DNA of 64,000 nucleotides from Candidatus Manganitrophus noduliformans. Lineage in GTDB: Bacteria > Nitrospirota > Nitrospiria > SBBL01 > Manganitrophaceae. The stretch lies in contig NZ_VTOW01000001.1 of the NCBI RefSeq assembly GCF_012184425.1, forward strand, positions 620,001 to 684,000, in the 5' to 3' direction. The translations under genes and the position numbers were made by a program. Shown here in pieces: positions 38,403 to 45,325 of the stretch. Under the pieces are notes generated by a model. That model searched no databases. It saw only the letters and a program-made list of their open reading frames with translations, and was not told where the DNA came from. The stretch's first letter is position 1; the number at the start of each line of letters is the position of its first letter.

Positions 38403-38479
38403 GCGCCCATAGCTCAGCTGGATAGAGCACTTGACTACGAATCAAGGGGTCGGGAGTTCAAATCTCTCTGGGCGCACCA
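38403..38479 (+). tRNA. tRNA-Arg (anticodon ACG)
   Basis: A 77-nt tRNA with acceptor stem GCGCCCA/TGGGCGC, discriminator A38476 and encoded CCA. The D-arm is AGCTCAGCTGGATAGAGC, the anticodon ACG is at 38437-38439 (loop CTACGAA), and the T-arm is GGGAGTTCAAATCTCTC. It reads CGU and, after A-to-I editing, CGC/CGA. Confidence 0.97.
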
Positions 38480-38789: not shown

Positions 38790-39557
38790 ATGACCCCTAT
38801 CCCGAACGGCCAGGCCTGTCCGAAATGTGCTCCTCTGCAGACGGAGTGCGAGGCGTTGCGTCAAAAGCTCGATCGAAACAGGGCGGAGCTCGATACCTTC
38901 GTTTATCGGGTCTCGCACGATTTGAAGGCCCCGGTCGTTTCCCTTTACGGGATGGCATCGGTCGTCTCCGAAGATTACGGCGAAAAGCTGGGCGAGCAGG
39001 GAAAGCACTACCTGAGCCGGCTGATGGCGAACGCGGGGATGATCGAGCGCCTTTTGGCCGATCTGCTTGCCTACTCCAGAGTCGGAAGAAAAGAGGCAAA
39101 CCCGGAGCGGCTTCAAGCCGATGCCGTCGTCCGGGATGTCTTGGGGAAGTTTTCGAAGGAGATCACGCAAAGAAAGATCCGTGTGGAAATTCACTCGCCG
39201 TTGCCGGAGATTTTTTTCGCTCGGACGCAGTTGGAGCAGCTCTTCTCGAATCTGATCGGCAACGCCGTCCGATTTATGGGCGATCAGCCCGATCCGGTGA
39301 TCGAGATCGGCGCCGTTGCGGCCGATGCAGGCATTACCTTCTACGTCCGGGACAACGGCATCGGAATCGATCCGCAGCATCACCAGATCATTTTCGGCGT
39401 CTTCGAACGTCTTAAAGAGATTGAGACGGATGGGACGGGGATGGGTCTTGCGCTTGTCCGGAAGATCCTGGATCTGGCAGGCGGCAATATATGGATCGAG
39501 TCAAACAAAGGAGAAGGGGCCGTTTTTTACTTCACGCTGCCCGTCGGTCGATGTTAG
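38790..39557 (+). CDS. soluble histidine kinase with N-terminal CPKC motif
   Basis: A 255-residue cytoplasmic kinase without a sensor domain. The N-terminus has closely spaced cysteines (C10-P-K-C13 and C20), which could bind metal. A short coiled coil leads to the HisKA box (VSHDLKAPV, phospho-acceptor H43). The HATPase domain has the N box (NLIGNAVRFM), G1 box (VRDNGIGID) and G2 box (GTGMGLALV). The start 38790 follows GAGAAGGTGAGG. It is a paralogue of the kinase core at 43850-45325. The CheY-like gene follows directly, as in Rcp1-type pairs. Confidence 0.9.
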   Translation: MTPIPNGQACPKCAPLQTECEALRQKLDRNRAELDTFVYRVSHDLKAPVVSLYGMASVVSEDYGEKLGEQGKHYLSRLMANAGMIERLLADLLAYSRVGRKEANPERLQADAVVRDVLGKFSKEITQRKIRVEIHSPLPEIFFARTQLEQLFSNLIGNAVRFMGDQPDPVIEIGAVAADAGITFYVRDNGIGIDPQHHQIIFGVFERLKEIETDGTGMGLALVRKILDLAGGNIWIESNKGEGAVFYFTLPVGRC

Positions 39558-39568
39558 GAGAATGGGAA

Positions 39569-40006
39569 ATGGAGCCGATCGAAATTCTATTGGTGGAAGA
39601 CAATCCCGACCATGCCGAATTGACCCGCCGTTCACTGATGAGCGGAAGCGTGGCGAACAGAGTGGCTTGGGTCAAAGACGGCCAAGAGGCGCTGGATTAT
39701 CTCTTTAAAAAAGAGCCTTATGCGAACGCCCCCCGGCCCGGGCTGATCCTCCTCGACATCAATCTTCCCAAGGTTAACGGCCTTGAGGTCCTAAAAAAAA
39801 TAAAAGAGACCGAAGATCTCCGTGTCATTCCGGTCATCATGTTGACGACATCGGATCGAGATGAAGAAGCGCTCAAATGTTACAACTTCGGCGCCAACAG
39901 CTTCATCACCAAGCCGGTGAAATTTACTGAATTTTCGGAGAAGGTCAAATCGCTGAAGCTCTATTGGCTGCTGGTCAATCGGCCGCCGAAATCGGACGCG
40001 TCGTAA
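39569..40006 (+). CDS. CheY-like response regulator (Rcp1 type)
   Basis: A 145-residue single receiver. It has the acidic pocket (LVEDNPDHAE), phospho-acceptor D63 (LILLDINLPKVNG), the switch Thr (MLTTSD) and the Lys of ITKPVKF. The opening IEILLVEDNPDHAELTRRSL and long loop after beta 3 are typical of the small regulators that pair with phytochrome-like kinases. The start 39569 follows AGGAGAATGG; upstream frame shadows the kinase gene. It lies 11 bp after the soluble kinase and presumably takes its phosphate. Confidence 0.92.
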   Translation: MEPIEILLVEDNPDHAELTRRSLMSGSVANRVAWVKDGQEALDYLFKKEPYANAPRPGLILLDINLPKVNGLEVLKKIKETEDLRVIPVIMLTTSDRDEEALKCYNFGANSFITKPVKFTEFSEKVKSLKLYWLLVNRPPKSDAS

Positions 40007-40048
40007 AGAACGGAATATTGGCGGGGTCGTCTTTGGATGGAGAACGGC

Positions 40049-42073
40049 ATGGAGAATGAGCCGGTCAAGATTTTACTTGTGGAAGACAATGTCGATCAAA
40101 GGGAGTTGACCCTGCGCGCGTTTCAGAAAAAGGAGCCCGACATCCGCATTACCCCCGTCGAAACCGGTCCGGCCTGCCTGGAGGCGCTGGGGAAAGGGCG
40201 TTTCGATGCGGTCATTCTCGACTACAGTCTTCCGATGATGAACGGAATCGAAGTCTTGAGCGAAATTCAGACGAAGGGCTATACCGCTCCGGTGATCATG
40301 GTGACCGGACAAGGGGATGAGAAGATTGCGGTAGAGGCGATGAAGCGGGGAGCGTGCGACTACATCATTAAGAGCCAAAACTATCACCAGACCCTCCCCC
40401 CCGCGGCCCGCAAAGTCATCGACCAAAACAGGCTGAAACGCCGTCTGGAGAAGAACGCGCAACGGGTTCACCGTCTGTATGAACTTTCCCTCTCTTTGGC
40501 GACCGAGCGAAAAACGACGGTTTTAAGCGATACCTTGGTCGAAGGGGCAAAAGAGCTGATGGATGCGGAAGGAGCGCTCCTCTTTCTCATCGATGCGGAA
40601 CAAGGGGAGATTCTCCAGACCGCCTTTGCCGGCGTGTCGTTCGAGGGTGGGATTCCACAGGGGCCCCTTTCGAAGCTCGGTCTCTTCGGGTTGGCGTGCC
40701 AGGAAAAACGACCGATCCTGATCGAAGACCCTCAAAAGCATCCTTTAAAAGGAGCCACCCCGGCGCTCCAAACTCCGCTTCGCCAAATTTTCTCGATTCC
40801 GCTCGTCCGCGAGGCCCGAAATTTAGGGGTGTTGAACCTGATCAATCAGAAGCAGGGGAGCTTTTCTTCCGAGGACCGAGATTTCCTATCGACCCTCTGC
40901 GTCAATGCCGCCGTGGCCCTGGACAATGCCCGCTTTCTGGAGGAGGTGGAAAAAAGGGCGGCCACCGACAGCCTCACCGGCCTCTACAACCATCGGGAGT
41001 TTCAGAAGCGATTGGGTGAGGAGACCGAGCGGGCGAGCCGATATGGGAAAGCGTTTTCGCTGCTGATGCTCGACATTGATCATTTTAAAGTTTTTAACGA
41101 CACCCATGGCCATCCGGTCGGGGATGCGATCCTGAAAGAAATCGTGAAGGTAATCCAAAAGTGCATCCGTAACGTCGACTTTCCGGCCCGGTATGGAGGA
41201 GAGGAGTTTTCAGTCATTCTCCCCGAGACGATCGGCATTCATGCCGCGAAAGTCGCCGAGAGAATCCGAAAAGCGATCGACGACGGCCCCTTCGTCACGC
41301 CGACAGGCCATCGGGTCCACCTCTCGATCAGCATCGGGGTTGCATCTTTCCCGGAAGACGGAAGGCGTCGGGAGGAATTGATCCTCTCCGCCGATCAGGC
41401 CCTCTACTTCGCGAAAAAAGACGGCCGCAATCGGGTCTGCCGCTACTGCGATACGCTCAAGGCGGCGATCGAGAAGGATCAGAACAAGTTGACCGAGCTT
41501 CTGCGCAATCCGGAGATAAAAACCATCCGCGATCTGGCCGCCGTGATCGATGCGAAGAGCCCCTACACGCGGGGTCATTCCGAGGGGGTGATCGAATATG
41601 CCCTTCTTCTTGCCGATGCGTTGAACCTCGGCGAGCAGGAAAAGCAAAGCTTGCAGCTCGCGAGCCTCCTTCACAACATCGGCATTGTCAGCATCCCCGA
41701 CAGCATTCTGAATAAACCGGGCCCCCTCTCGACCGAGGAGCGGAAAATCATTCAAGCCCATCCCGGCCTGGCGCAGATGCTGATCAAAGAATCACACAAT
41801 CTGGATTCTGTTCTTCCGGCCATTCTCTACCATCACGAACGCTACGACGGCAAAGGTTATCCGAACGGGTTAACAGGAGAGGAGATTCCTTTTCTCGCCC
41901 GCGTCCTGGGCGTGGTCGAGGCGTATCATGCGATGATTTCGGTTCGCCCCTACCGACCGAAGATGTCGCATGAGGAGGCGGTCCAAGAGCTCCGGAAGAA
42001 CGCCGGCACCCAATTTGATCCGGGAGTGGTGAAAACTTTCCTCGAAATCTTGGATAAAAGAAATCCGGCCTGA
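40049..42073 (+). CDS. REC-GAF-GGDEF-HD-GYP protein with degenerate HD motif
   Basis: A 674-residue cyclic-di-GMP-type signalling protein. Domains in order: receiver (about 1-120, phospho-acceptor near 57 in VILDYSLPMMNG), GAF (about 150-310), GGDEF (about 310-470) with an active-looking signature GGEEF near 382, and HD-GYP (about 490-660). In the last domain GYP is present (HHERYDGKGYP), but the HD pair reads HN (LLHNIGIVSIPD) and the usual IGK lysine is missing, so phosphodiesterase activity is doubtful. The start 40049 follows GGAG. Its stop overlaps the ATG of the decayed TonB receptor (TGATG). Confidence 0.92.
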   Translation: MENEPVKILLVEDNVDQRELTLRAFQKKEPDIRITPVETGPACLEALGKGRFDAVILDYSLPMMNGIEVLSEIQTKGYTAPVIMVTGQGDEKIAVEAMKRGACDYIIKSQNYHQTLPPAARKVIDQNRLKRRLEKNAQRVHRLYELSLSLATERKTTVLSDTLVEGAKELMDAEGALLFLIDAEQGEILQTAFAGVSFEGGIPQGPLSKLGLFGLACQEKRPILIEDPQKHPLKGATPALQTPLRQIFSIPLVREARNLGVLNLINQKQGSFSSEDRDFLSTLCVNAAVALDNARFLEEVEKRAATDSLTGLYNHREFQKRLGEETERASRYGKAFSLLMLDIDHFKVFNDTHGHPVGDAILKEIVKVIQKCIRNVDFPARYGGEEFSVILPETIGIHAAKVAERIRKAIDDGPFVTPTGHRVHLSISIGVASFPEDGRRREELILSADQALYFAKKDGRNRVCRYCDTLKAAIEKDQNKLTELLRNPEIKTIRDLAAVIDAKSPYTRGHSEGVIEYALLLADALNLGEQEKQSLQLASLLHNIGIVSIPDSILNKPGPLSTEERKIIQAHPGLAQMLIKESHNLDSVLPAILYHHERYDGKGYPNGLTGEEIPFLARVLGVVEAYHAMISVRPYRPKMSHEEAVQELRKNAGTQFDPGVVKTFLEILDKRNPA

Positions 42074-42947
42074 TGTTTTTCGGTAAAAAGAAACGATGGA
42101 GAAACGGTTGCAGTAAAATCATCGGGCCGTTTTTGCTCTTCAGCGCGGCGGCCTCGGTCTCGGCGGCCAAAGAGGGGCGTTCGGAGTTGGAGTTCTTTGC
42201 GCACGAAGCGCAGACGGTATAACGGCTTCCCGGCGCTTGCAGCCGGTGCGGGAAGCCCCGGTGGCGGTGGAGGTGATCACCGGCGAAGAAGTCCGGACCT
42301 CGGGGGCGACGAACCTCTGGGACCTCCTGCGATTTCGCGTCGGAATGGACGTCCTCGATGGCCGGTCGGTCGACGGGAACCGAGCGATTGTTTCGAGGAA
42401 CGGAGCCGGCCTATCAGATTGCAACCCTCTATGCACTGGGAACCGACCATGCTTTACGTGCGTCGTATTCAGCGGCACCGACGGTCCCTTCTTTGTGGGA
42501 AGTCCGGGTCGACCGGCAGTCGGACTTCACCGTGATCATGGAAGGGAACCCCGATTTGAAGCCGTCGAAACTTCACTCCAATGAGATCGGCTATCACGGC
42601 GTCTATTTCGACCGGCGTCTCCAGGCCGAAGGGAGCCTCTTTTACATGCAGTCCGACGATCTCACTGCAAGTTTCGTGAAGCAGCAAGGCGCTTTCTTCC
42701 CTTTCCCAACCCCCACCACCTTCTCATTCGACAACAGCAGAAAGGCAACGGCGAAAGGGGCTGAGCTGAAGTGGACCTACCGCTTCGCCCCGGCGCGGTG
42801 GGTCTATGTCAACTATACCTATGAAACAATCGATGACGATGGATCGACCTTCAGGGGAAAAATCTTGCGAGTCCGAATCATCGCGAGTTCCCCGACTTCC
42901 TCGAAATCCCGAAGACGTACTACGGCGTCGTCTCGGTCATCTATTGA
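42073..42947 (+). pseudogene. TonB-dependent receptor, frameshifted and internally deleted
   Basis: An ATG at 42073 in the stop codon of the preceding gene opens a signal-peptide-like sequence (FLLFSAAASVSAAKEG) that hits a stop after QTV. The reading resumes in another frame with a plug domain (APVAVEVITGEEVRTSGATNLWDLLRFRVGMDV). Soon after NRAIVS the sequence jumps to C-terminal barrel strands (GNPDLKPSKLHSNEIGYHG, FDNSRKATAKGAELKWTYRF), so most of the barrel is missing. A last frame change before NHREFPDFLEIPKTYYGVVSVIY ends the gene. With at least three lesions it cannot make a working receptor. An intact one normally has 650 or more residues. Confidence 0.85.
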
Positions 42948-42962
42948 GTCATGAGTCGATGA

Positions 42963-43853
42963 ATGAGGCAAACTTCCGGAAAATGGGTTCGAATCACCTG
43001 CCTGATCGGTTTTTTCCTCGCCGTTCCCGGAGCGGCGTCTTCTCAAGAGGTCGTGGCGATCCTCAGCGCCGAATGGGGCCCCTATCGCGAGGCGTTTGAG
43101 GGATTTCAAGAAGCGTTCGGCCGTCCCGTCCCTTCCATTTCCATCATGGAAGGCCCTCCGCGGATCTCTCTGGAGACCCGCGTTGTCGTCGCCTTCGGGG
43201 GGAAGGCGGCGCAATGGGATTATCCCGACAGAGTCGTCCTGATCTACGGCATGGCGCCCGGGACGAAGCTGGGATTGCGGGATCGGAAAGGGCTCTCCGT
43301 CGAAGTGAATATCCTCCCGCGGGCCGCGACCGTCCTCGCGAGACTCAAGGAAATGCAGCCGAACCTTAAGCGGCTGGCGGTTCTCTGGTCTTCAGAATCG
43401 GTTGAAGCGTACCTCCAGGAGATCCGAAAGGCATCGGAGTCGATCGGGATCGACATTTTGTCGGAACGGTTGAACAGCCCGGTTGATCTTCCCGATCGCC
43501 TTCGGAATCTTTTTCGGAAGGCCGATGCCATTTGGCTTCTTCCGGACCCCGTCCTCGTCAGCGCTCAGAATCTTTCCATTTTGAAAGAGTATTCCTGGTC
43601 CAACCGGATTCCCTTTTACGCCCCCACGGCGGGATTCGTTCAGCAGGGGGCCACCGCATCGGTATCGAGCAGCTTTCGCGAGGTGGGCCGCGCAGCCGGC
43701 CTTGCGGCTCAAGAGGTGCTCTCGGGGGAGTGGACGCTCGAAACGATTTACCCCGGAAAGGCAGAAGTAACGATCAATGTAAAGGCGGCTGAAAAAGCAG
43801 GGCTGGATATTCCGAAAGAAGCCCTTCAGAAGGCCGACAGAGTGCTTCCATGA
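42963..43853 (+). CDS. ABC-type substrate-binding protein (TrpX-like family), no transporter nearby
   Basis: A 296-residue exported protein with a Sec signal (ITCLIGFFLAVPGAASS). The fold and motifs (VVVAFGGKAAQW, LKRLAVLWSSESVEAYLQEIRKASESIGIDI, ADAIWLLPDPVLVS, RIPFYAPTAGFVQQGATASVSSSF) fit the ABC_sub_bind family, which binds small organic ligands such as aromatic amino acids. No permease or ATPase is adjacent. Its stop overlaps the start of the sensor kinase by four bases, so it may present ligand to that kinase instead of a transporter. Confidence 0.85.
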   Translation: MRQTSGKWVRITCLIGFFLAVPGAASSQEVVAILSAEWGPYREAFEGFQEAFGRPVPSISIMEGPPRISLETRVVVAFGGKAAQWDYPDRVVLIYGMAPGTKLGLRDRKGLSVEVNILPRAATVLARLKEMQPNLKRLAVLWSSESVEAYLQEIRKASESIGIDILSERLNSPVDLPDRLRNLFRKADAIWLLPDPVLVSAQNLSILKEYSWSNRIPFYAPTAGFVQQGATASVSSSFREVGRAAGLAAQEVLSGEWTLETIYPGKAEVTINVKAAEKAGLDIPKEALQKADRVLP

Positions 43854-45325
43854 CGCTTCGAACGAAGTTTCTGATCTTTATCATCTCCATTGCGCTCCTT
43901 TCCGGGGGCGCCAGTATCTTTTTTTCGAAGAGAGGGGTGCATTCCATTCTCGTGGGAGAGGTGGCCAAGCGGGGGATTTTAAAGACCACCGGCCTGCCGG
44001 GCGAGATCGCGTCGGCCTTCGAAGAAGAGGATGAAGATCTGCTTCTAGCCTTTTTGCAAGAGGCGATGGAACGAACCGAGGCGCTTTATGCCGTCGCGCT
44101 CGATGAACGGGGCCGTGTCTTGGCCCACACCAATGTGGTCGAGAAGGGGAAGGTCTATCAAGATCGTGCGACGCAGGAAGCCCTTCGATCGGAACAGCCG
44201 GGATACCGCGAACTTCAGACGGCCGGCCAAACGGTGGTCGATGTCTCATTTCCGGTCTGGTCGGTTCAAACGGCCTCCACGGAGGAAGAGTTTCTTCTGT
44301 TCGGCGGGAAAGAGCTGAAGGAGACGACCCGCCTGGGGACGTTGAGATTGGGGCTGTCGATGGCGGAGATGATGGAGACCGAGAAACGGATCACCTTGCA
44401 GTTGGCCTGGATCTTGGCGGTGACCGGCTTGATCGCCTTCGGAATTTCCCTGGTGTCGATGAAGAAAGTTCTCCGGCGGGTTCGGATTTTGGTCGAAGGG
44501 ACGGAGAAGATCGGCCGGGGGGAATATGGGGCGATGGTGCAGGCCTTCTCCAACGATGAATTGGGTGTCCTGGCGCGCAGCTTCAATCAGATGAGTGAAG
44601 GGTTGGACCGGGCGCATACGCATTTGGAAAAAGAGGTCAAGCTGCGGACGCAAGAGTTGGAATCGGTCATTTATACCATCTCCCATGACCTGAAGTCGCC
44701 GGTGGTCTCCATGCAAGGAATGGCCTCGATTCTCATGGAGGACTATGCCGGGCAACTCGATGAGAAGGGGAAACACTACCTGCAGCGGGTGATCGAGAAC
44801 GCCAATTACATGGAACAGATGATTATGGATCTGCTGACGCTCTCCCGCGTGGGCGCGCAGAAAGGGTCGGAGCCGGTCGAGGTTCGATCGGTCGTTGAGA
44901 GAATTCTCGATATCCATCAAGAGCGCTTTGCGAAGAAGGGGATCGAGATCATTATCCAACCGACATTTCCACGTCTCCTATTCGATCGCGCACAAATTAC
45001 GGAGTTGTTTCAAAATCTAATCACCAATGCGGCAAAATTTATGGGAGATCAGCCCTGTCCGCGAATTGAGATCGGCGGGAGGGAGAGCGGCGAGTGGGTG
45101 GAGCTTTATGTGAAGGACAATGGGATCGGAATTGACCCAGAGTACCATGACAGGATTTTCGGCGTTTTCCAACGGCTGAAGGATGTGGAGGTGGAAGGAA
45201 CCGGGGTCGGGCTGTCGATCGTAAAAAAGATCGTCGATCTTGCTCACGGCACGATCTGGATCGAATCGAGAAAGGGCGAAGGAACGACATTTTTTATTCG
45301 ATTTCCGAAAGCGGAGGAAGCTTAG
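43850..45325 (+). CDS. membrane sensor histidine kinase with HAMP domain
   Basis: A 491-residue kinase. A membrane helix at residues 6-26 and another near 182-202 (LAWILAVTGLIAFGISLV) bracket a periplasmic Cache-like sensor domain of about 150 residues. HAMP follows (about 203-255), then the HisKA box (ISHDLKSPVVSMQGMAS, phospho-acceptor near 279) and HATPase with VKDNGIGIDPEY and GTGVGLSIV. The kinase core is closely similar to the soluble kinase at 38790-39557. The ATGA overlap with the binding-protein gene suggests that protein is its ligand receptor. No regulator gene follows. Confidence 0.93.
   Translation: MTLRTKFLIFIISIALLSGGASIFFSKRGVHSILVGEVAKRGILKTTGLPGEIASAFEEEDEDLLLAFLQEAMERTEALYAVALDERGRVLAHTNVVEKGKVYQDRATQEALRSEQPGYRELQTAGQTVVDVSFPVWSVQTASTEEEFLLFGGKELKETTRLGTLRLGLSMAEMMETEKRITLQLAWILAVTGLIAFGISLVSMKKVLRRVRILVEGTEKIGRGEYGAMVQAFSNDELGVLARSFNQMSEGLDRAHTHLEKEVKLRTQELESVIYTISHDLKSPVVSMQGMASILMEDYAGQLDEKGKHYLQRVIENANYMEQMIMDLLTLSRVGAQKGSEPVEVRSVVERILDIHQERFAKKGIEIIIQPTFPRLLFDRAQITELFQNLITNAAKFMGDQPCPRIEIGGRESGEWVELYVKDNGIGIDPEYHDRIFGVFQRLKDVEVEGTGVGLSIVKKIVDLAHGTIWIESRKGEGTTFFIRFPKAEEA

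Follow-up and report, generated by a model that had tools for sequence, protein, structure and literature searches.

A PF04392 binding protein as a putative detachable ligand-binding subunit of a membrane histidine kinase in Candidatus Manganitrophus noduliformans

LuxP-LuxQ is a receptor system stimulated by a substrate-binding protein (SBP), LuxQ working together with a binding protein, and in the NspS-MbaA polyamine system of Vibrio cholerae an SBP acts on a transducer that is itself an enzyme of cyclic di-GMP (c-di-GMP) metabolism. DcuS and CitA bind small acids directly, and FecA-FecR-FecI is a trans-envelope signalling system. Here we describe a locus of Candidatus Manganitrophus noduliformans (G000 in our genome set; 5.17 Mb in 22 contigs) in which a TrpX-like SBP of family PF04392 adjoins a membrane histidine kinase (HKmem). 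It lies at positions 38790-45325 of a 64,000-nucleotide stretch, hereafter the window (contig NZ_VTOW01000001.1 of assembly GCF_012184425.1, positions 620,001 to 684,000), together with a soluble histidine kinase (HKsol), a single-domain response regulator, a GGDEF protein referred to below as the cyclase, and the remains of a TonB-dependent receptor gene. We propose, with a probability of roughly two in three, that the SBP acts as a detachable ligand-binding subunit of HKmem.

The resemblance to NspS-MbaA would lie in an SBP acting on a c-di-GMP transducer, but a kinase intervenes here, although a relative in genome G004 has a GGDEF-EAL output. As in FecA-FecR-FecI, a TonB-dependent receptor is genetically linked to signalling; unlike FecA, the intact receptor of genome G005 matches plug and barrel families only and has no N-terminal signalling domain. 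SBPs that stimulate chemoreceptors, sensor kinases and cyclases or phosphodiesterases are presented as an established class in PMC9602780. The locus agrees with that account in having a periplasmic SBP, no dedicated permease and, beside the SBP, a membrane transducer whose periplasmic domain is of the Cache type, and differs from the systems covered there in its PF04392 SBP, in the TonB-dependent receptor included in the cassette and in the several outputs served by one input. TrpXYZ is a tryptophan importer (PMC9382623); it shares with our locus a PF04392 SBP, whose top structural match contains L-Trp, but here no permease or ATPase adjoins the SBP, the TrpX score is far below the cut-off and the Nitrospirota copies stand beside transducers. 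In the open-licence literature searched we found no recognisable description of PF04392 proteins accompanied by TonB-dependent receptors and by kinases, and none of a PF04392 sensing role, a predominance in Nitrospirota, a linked receptor or output swapping; PMC9040806 contained none of the six signalling or assembly terms looked for.

The genes of the SBP and HKmem share 4 bp (ATGA), and no ATP-binding cassette (ABC) permease or ATPase family was found among the nine open reading frames scanned between 37854 and 45785. A phylum-wide search revealed PF04392 in 206 of 295 genomes, and we surveyed 78 Nitrospirota loci: the 18 nearest to the window and 60 hand-picked among the matches listed (about every second of the top 80 rows, fewer below, same-cluster neighbours being skipped). 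The sample is biased towards strong scores and close relatives, and its loci are not independent of one another; because gene calling was mechanical, starts and gaps are approximate. The SBP, missed at the first pass in five loci (L041, L080, L081, L091 and L114), was recovered by a forced pass in all 78. A same-strand gene directly follows it in 73 loci, within 100 bp in 71 and with a 4-bp overlap in many, and a permease with an ATPase adjoins it in one (L066). The initial annotation had described a kinase-coupled SBP that lacks a transporter, and this description is upheld: the neighbourhood it suggested comparing is conserved across the sample, and a permease and ATPase always travelling with the SBP, the finding it named as contrary, were looked for and adjoin it in that single locus.

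The downstream partners are largely transducers. HAMP was detected in 64 of the 71 scanned (HKmem and 70 others, L066 being excluded because its neighbour is an ATPase), and the outputs comprised HATPase_c (50), HisKA (49), MCPsignal (6), GGDEF (3), EAL (3) and HD (2), where the tallies are counts of Pfam families and not of joint architectures. Sensor families included sCache_3_2 (12), sCache_4 (9) and dCache_1 (7); a second binding domain, Phosphonate-bd, occurred in four partners, and no ABC permease or ATPase was present among the 25 families listed, of 37 matched by these proteins. The 64 upstream neighbours scanned contained a TonB barrel in 21 cases, a plug in 19, a response-regulator domain in 17 and a weak match to the MtrB/PioB porin in four. 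The ancestral cassette is receptor-SBP-kinase. Its output may be replaced within one genus: L038 (6868-9348; G004, contig C16) is a receptor-SBP cassette with no kinase, whose sCache-HAMP-PAS-GGDEF-EAL partner has a sensor 55% identical to that of the window, yet a GGDEF-EAL output. A second PF04392 cassette of the window genome, L050 (contig C1, 1061000-1080500), encodes a TonB-dependent receptor, a peptidase M1-like protein, an SBP, a HAMP kinase and a sigma-54 response regulator.

The mature SBP was modelled by AlphaFold as a complete two-lobed binding protein (predicted local distance difference test score, pLDDT, 95.7), and its structural matches were led by PF04392 structures, namely 3lft (with L-Trp), 3lkv and 6hnj/6hni. 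For the HKmem sensor (pLDDT 80) the closest folds were the periplasmic domains of DcuS and CitA, citrate-bound CitA entries being among the titles, and the LuxQ periplasmic domain was also matched. In the 46 of 78 loci with a kinase partner and with both SBP and sensor long, SBP distances correlated with those of the sensor (r 0.929) and of the kinase (0.887), each correlation exceeding all 2000 permutations; partial correlations were 0.650 for SBP-sensor and 0.317 for SBP-kinase. Since shared descent is only partly removed, the SBP-sensor correlation supports, and does not prove, contact.

The coordinates of the features are collected in the table. The initial gene list (soluble kinase, regulator, c-di-GMP protein, SBP and ATGA-coupled membrane kinase) was borne out in full; it had overlooked the receptor remnant. 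A tRNA-Arg gene (38403-38479) lies upstream of the locus. The response regulator has orthologues in G005, G003, G004, G001, G026 and G027, and those of HKsol are 97% identical in G005 and G003, 69% in G001 and 67% in G004. The named relatives of the SBP belong to Candidatus Manganitrophus GAC4 and to a metagenome-assembled genome of Manganitrophaceae.

Features of the signalling locus in the window
Feature	Coordinates	Strand	Evidence and remarks
HKsol, soluble histidine kinase, HisKA-HATPase_c	38790..39557	+	HisKA 3.4e-9, HATPase_c 2.7e-26; no sensor domain found in domain scan of the reading frame
Single-domain response regulator, REC only	39569..40006	+	Response_reg 3.1e-24; likely start ATG 39569, from sequence reading
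REC-GAF-GGDEF-HD-GYP protein (cyclase)	40037..42073	+	Domain scan; GGEEF and RxxD present, HD = HN
TonB-dependent receptor remnant, plug and barrel pieces, frames broken	42074..42947	+	Plug 6e-5, barrel 8.8e-19
PF04392 (TrpX-like) periplasmic SBP	42963..43853	+	PF04392 1.7e-18
HKmem, membrane kinase, sCache_3_2-HAMP-HisKA-HATPase_c	43850..45325	+	Domain scan; membrane placement predicted from the sCache_3_2 and HAMP architecture

Gene content, gene overlap, receptor decay, the conserved cassette, output swapping and motif states can be read directly, and on them we would place the following scheme. Ancestrally, an outer-membrane TonB-dependent receptor would admit or concentrate a scarce ligand, which the periplasmic SBP would capture. 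The loaded SBP may then dock at the HKmem sCache domain and shift the balance of kinase and phosphatase activity across HAMP. Phosphate would pass to the single-domain regulator, to the REC domain of the GGDEF protein or to both, with a presumed change in c-di-GMP synthesis. HKsol would provide a second input to the same regulator-cyclase pair.

That two kinases converge on one output, as initially suggested, is supported by gene order. In G004 the HKsol-regulator-cyclase unit, with that genome's best cyclase match, is found on the serS side without the SBP and HKmem, and in G026 and G027 the regulator and the cyclase (the best cyclase matches of those genomes) come immediately after HKmem, without HKsol; since each kinase alone stands beside the same pair, either may own it. 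The two proteins were called paralogous, and their kinase regions are indeed 48% identical; they are not local duplicates, however, but members of separate clades. A local duplication was rejected on two grounds: in a tree HKsol groups with its orthologues from G005, G003, G001 and G004, and HKmem with its own in a separate group; and HKsol has paralogues elsewhere in its own genome at 52%, 52% and 47% identity, compared with 48% for HKmem. The HKsol kinase region matches 110 places in its own genome, and no SBP was found adjoining its paralogues among the neighbours inspected. The residues at His+7, +8, +11 and +12 are V, S, G and M in both HKsol and HKmem. Among loci for the best 30 of these 110 places, some of which yielded no motif, the kinases L126 and L128 have the same residues and L127 comes close; V, S and G being common to all three, they are no proof of an exclusive common partner.

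It might be argued instead that the two kinases belong to separate circuits and that a rearrangement within a single Manganitrophus lineage made them neighbours by chance. In G004 the HKsol unit is on a different contig from the receptor-SBP unit, and in G005 the corresponding halves are split by a gap of 240 bp together with an intact receptor gene, which also leaves the single operon of the initial annotation uncertain. Nevertheless, each kinase is found separately beside orthologues of the same regulator and cyclase, and the two have the DHp specificity residues in common. We therefore regard chance neighbourhood as unlikely, although it survives better than the other alternatives.

The output protein is a GGDEF protein, in keeping with the c-di-GMP role first assigned to it, but only one half of it appears catalytically equipped. 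Its GGEEF motif and RxxD site (RNVD) are intact, whereas the HD motif reads HN, as it does in the orthologues of G005, G004, G001, G026 and G027 and in L043 (L045 keeps HDIG). Judged by this motif, the HD-GYP part is degenerate, and its role is probably one of binding or regulation instead of hydrolysis; with the HD motif lost and GGEEF intact, the net activity is likely to be c-di-GMP synthesis.

In G005 the gene order is that of the window, with an intact receptor of 680 aa (plug 1.2e-23, barrel 7.1e-33) in one open frame; relative to this copy, the window receptor gene lacks about 290 bp (intergenic gap and gene start), 887 bp (plug to mid-barrel) and 229 bp (late barrel), carries a 2-bp insertion in its first remaining piece and has no single open frame holding plug and barrel. 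It is a recent pseudogene. The longest piece differs from G005 by 15 synonymous and 11 nonsynonymous changes, and the ratio of nonsynonymous to synonymous differences per site (pN/pS, 0.22) suggests that selection acted on the receptor probably until recently. A second intact copy in the same genome was sought and rejected, none being close (next best 28% identity). The receptor matched no NCBIfam family above its cut-off (the best, TOL_0244, reached 212 against 645 bits), so we name no ligand for it. In GAC4 the receptor is reduced to codons 619-680 and an in-frame 396-bp deletion shortens the SBP to 164 aa; in G001, the stretch from the cyclase to an open HKmem holds matches, interrupted by stops, of 42 residues to the receptor and 33 residues to the SBP. 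G002 has the receptor's last 226 residues, the SBP and HKmem in open frames as far as a contig end. Thus outer parts have decayed in three genomes among those examined, and the kinase is still open. Because the receptor is a pseudogene in the window genome, either the SBP there obtains its ligand in some other way or the loss of the front end is under way, as it took place in GAC4 and G001.

Besides the wide occurrence of the V, S and G residues, several of these observations weigh against the SBP being a subunit of HKmem. The receptor is broken in the reported genome itself. HKmem remains open where the SBP is gone (G001) or cut to 164 aa (GAC4), so the kinase may have SBP-independent work, and the ratio of nonsynonymous to synonymous substitution rates (dN/dS, 0.09-0.15) indicates purifying selection on HKmem in pairs that include G001. 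Moreover, as the nearest folds, DcuS and CitA, bind acids directly, HKmem may sense by itself. HKmem would then detect the ligand through its sCache domain, and the SBP, linked to it only through the operon, would act as a scavenger or inhibitor. Both the ligand-binding habit of DcuS and CitA and the persistence of HKmem after SBP loss favour this possibility. It does not readily explain why SBP and transducer stay coupled phylum-wide despite swaps of output, or why SBP distances follow those of the sensor, and the fold list also contains the periplasmic domain of LuxQ, which uses a binding protein. On balance we consider direct sensing improbable.

It is somewhat more doubtful still that the locus is a dying relic, in which loss of the receptor was followed by loss of function of the SBP and HKmem, leaving only HKsol, the regulator and the cyclase at work. 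Such decay would fit the broken receptor of the window and the damage to receptor and SBP in GAC4 and G001. Changes along the GAC4 branch number 7 synonymous and 12 nonsynonymous in HKmem and 10 and 3, respectively, in HKsol (Fisher p 0.036), which hints at relaxation of HKmem after SBP loss. These counts are small, however, and the comparison of HKmem on the GAC4 branch with HKmem on the G005 branch (9 synonymous, 4 nonsynonymous) gives p 0.15; GAC4 may also hold sequencing errors, the cyclase being split there too. HKmem is open in all five genomes compared, with dN/dS values of 0.09-0.16 in nine of their ten pairs (0.30 for G005-G003), and in the window genome the SBP is open as well, with a dN/dS of 0.18 against G005.

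It is very improbable that the SBP works for an ABC importer whose genes lie in another part of the genome: PF02653 permeases occur somewhere in all eight genomes searched and the SBP precedes a permease and an ATPase in four of six plasmid contexts, but such genes adjoin PF04392 only in L066 among the Nitrospirota loci, and the window SBP scores 64.1 bits against the TrpX equivalog, whose cut-off is 390. A remote ABC partner is thus unlikely. The plasmid contexts were read from 67 plasmid records with a PF04392 match; among the six, a Geobacter plasmid carries a TonB-dependent receptor, an SBP, a HAMP kinase and a response regulator, and a Rhizobium plasmid an SBP followed by a dCache-HAMP-cyclase protein. 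The importer form therefore exists and is rare in the Nitrospirota sample. In L066 (G165, contig C90), repeated PF04392 matches and a PF02653-like permease share one frame of 1271 aa, followed by an ATPase; this possible fused importer is the only ABC case in the survey.

More tentatively, at slightly less than even odds, we extend the subunit reading to the phylum: Nitrospirota PF04392 proteins, and likewise scattered members of other phyla, may for the most part be interchangeable ligand-binding subunits of Cache-HAMP transducers rather than transport proteins, often with a TonB-dependent receptor of their own. They would form an outer-membrane-to-cytoplasm relay in which the input is kept, the outputs (kinase, chemoreceptor, GGDEF-EAL, HD-GYP, class III cyclase) are swapped, and the front end can be lost without loss of the kinase. 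The database name "ABC transporter substrate-binding protein" appears to be mistaken at nearly every Nitrospirota locus in the sample. If the proposal is true, these loci are natural experiments, with like SBPs and sensors joined to different outputs, in the presence or absence of an outer receptor, and with sister species that have undergone recent losses; they would permit a direct test of how binding proteins drive transducers, and of whether a TonB-dependent receptor can have the supply of a sensor, and not uptake, as its function.

Some loci of the survey have unusual neighbours. In L102 (3240-8576), and also in L095 and L108, the PF04392 SBP is flanked by trpE, encoding anthranilate synthase component I, and by another SBP, of the phosphonate type, with a kinase next in L102 and L095; this arrangement hints that the ligand of the subfamily is aromatic. 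In L117 (7060-9033) and L087 (3927-5888) a protein of 645-666 aa, with weak MtrB/PioB porin matches, replaces the TonB-dependent receptor upstream of the SBP, and the downstream partners are chemoreceptors; proteins of similar size precede the SBP in L118 and L122. Finally, synonymous divergence between the window and the G005 locus (L035) rises along the genes (HKsol 0.09, response regulator 0.07, cyclase 0.17, SBP 0.20 and HKmem 0.40), as if recombination had exchanged the HKmem end.

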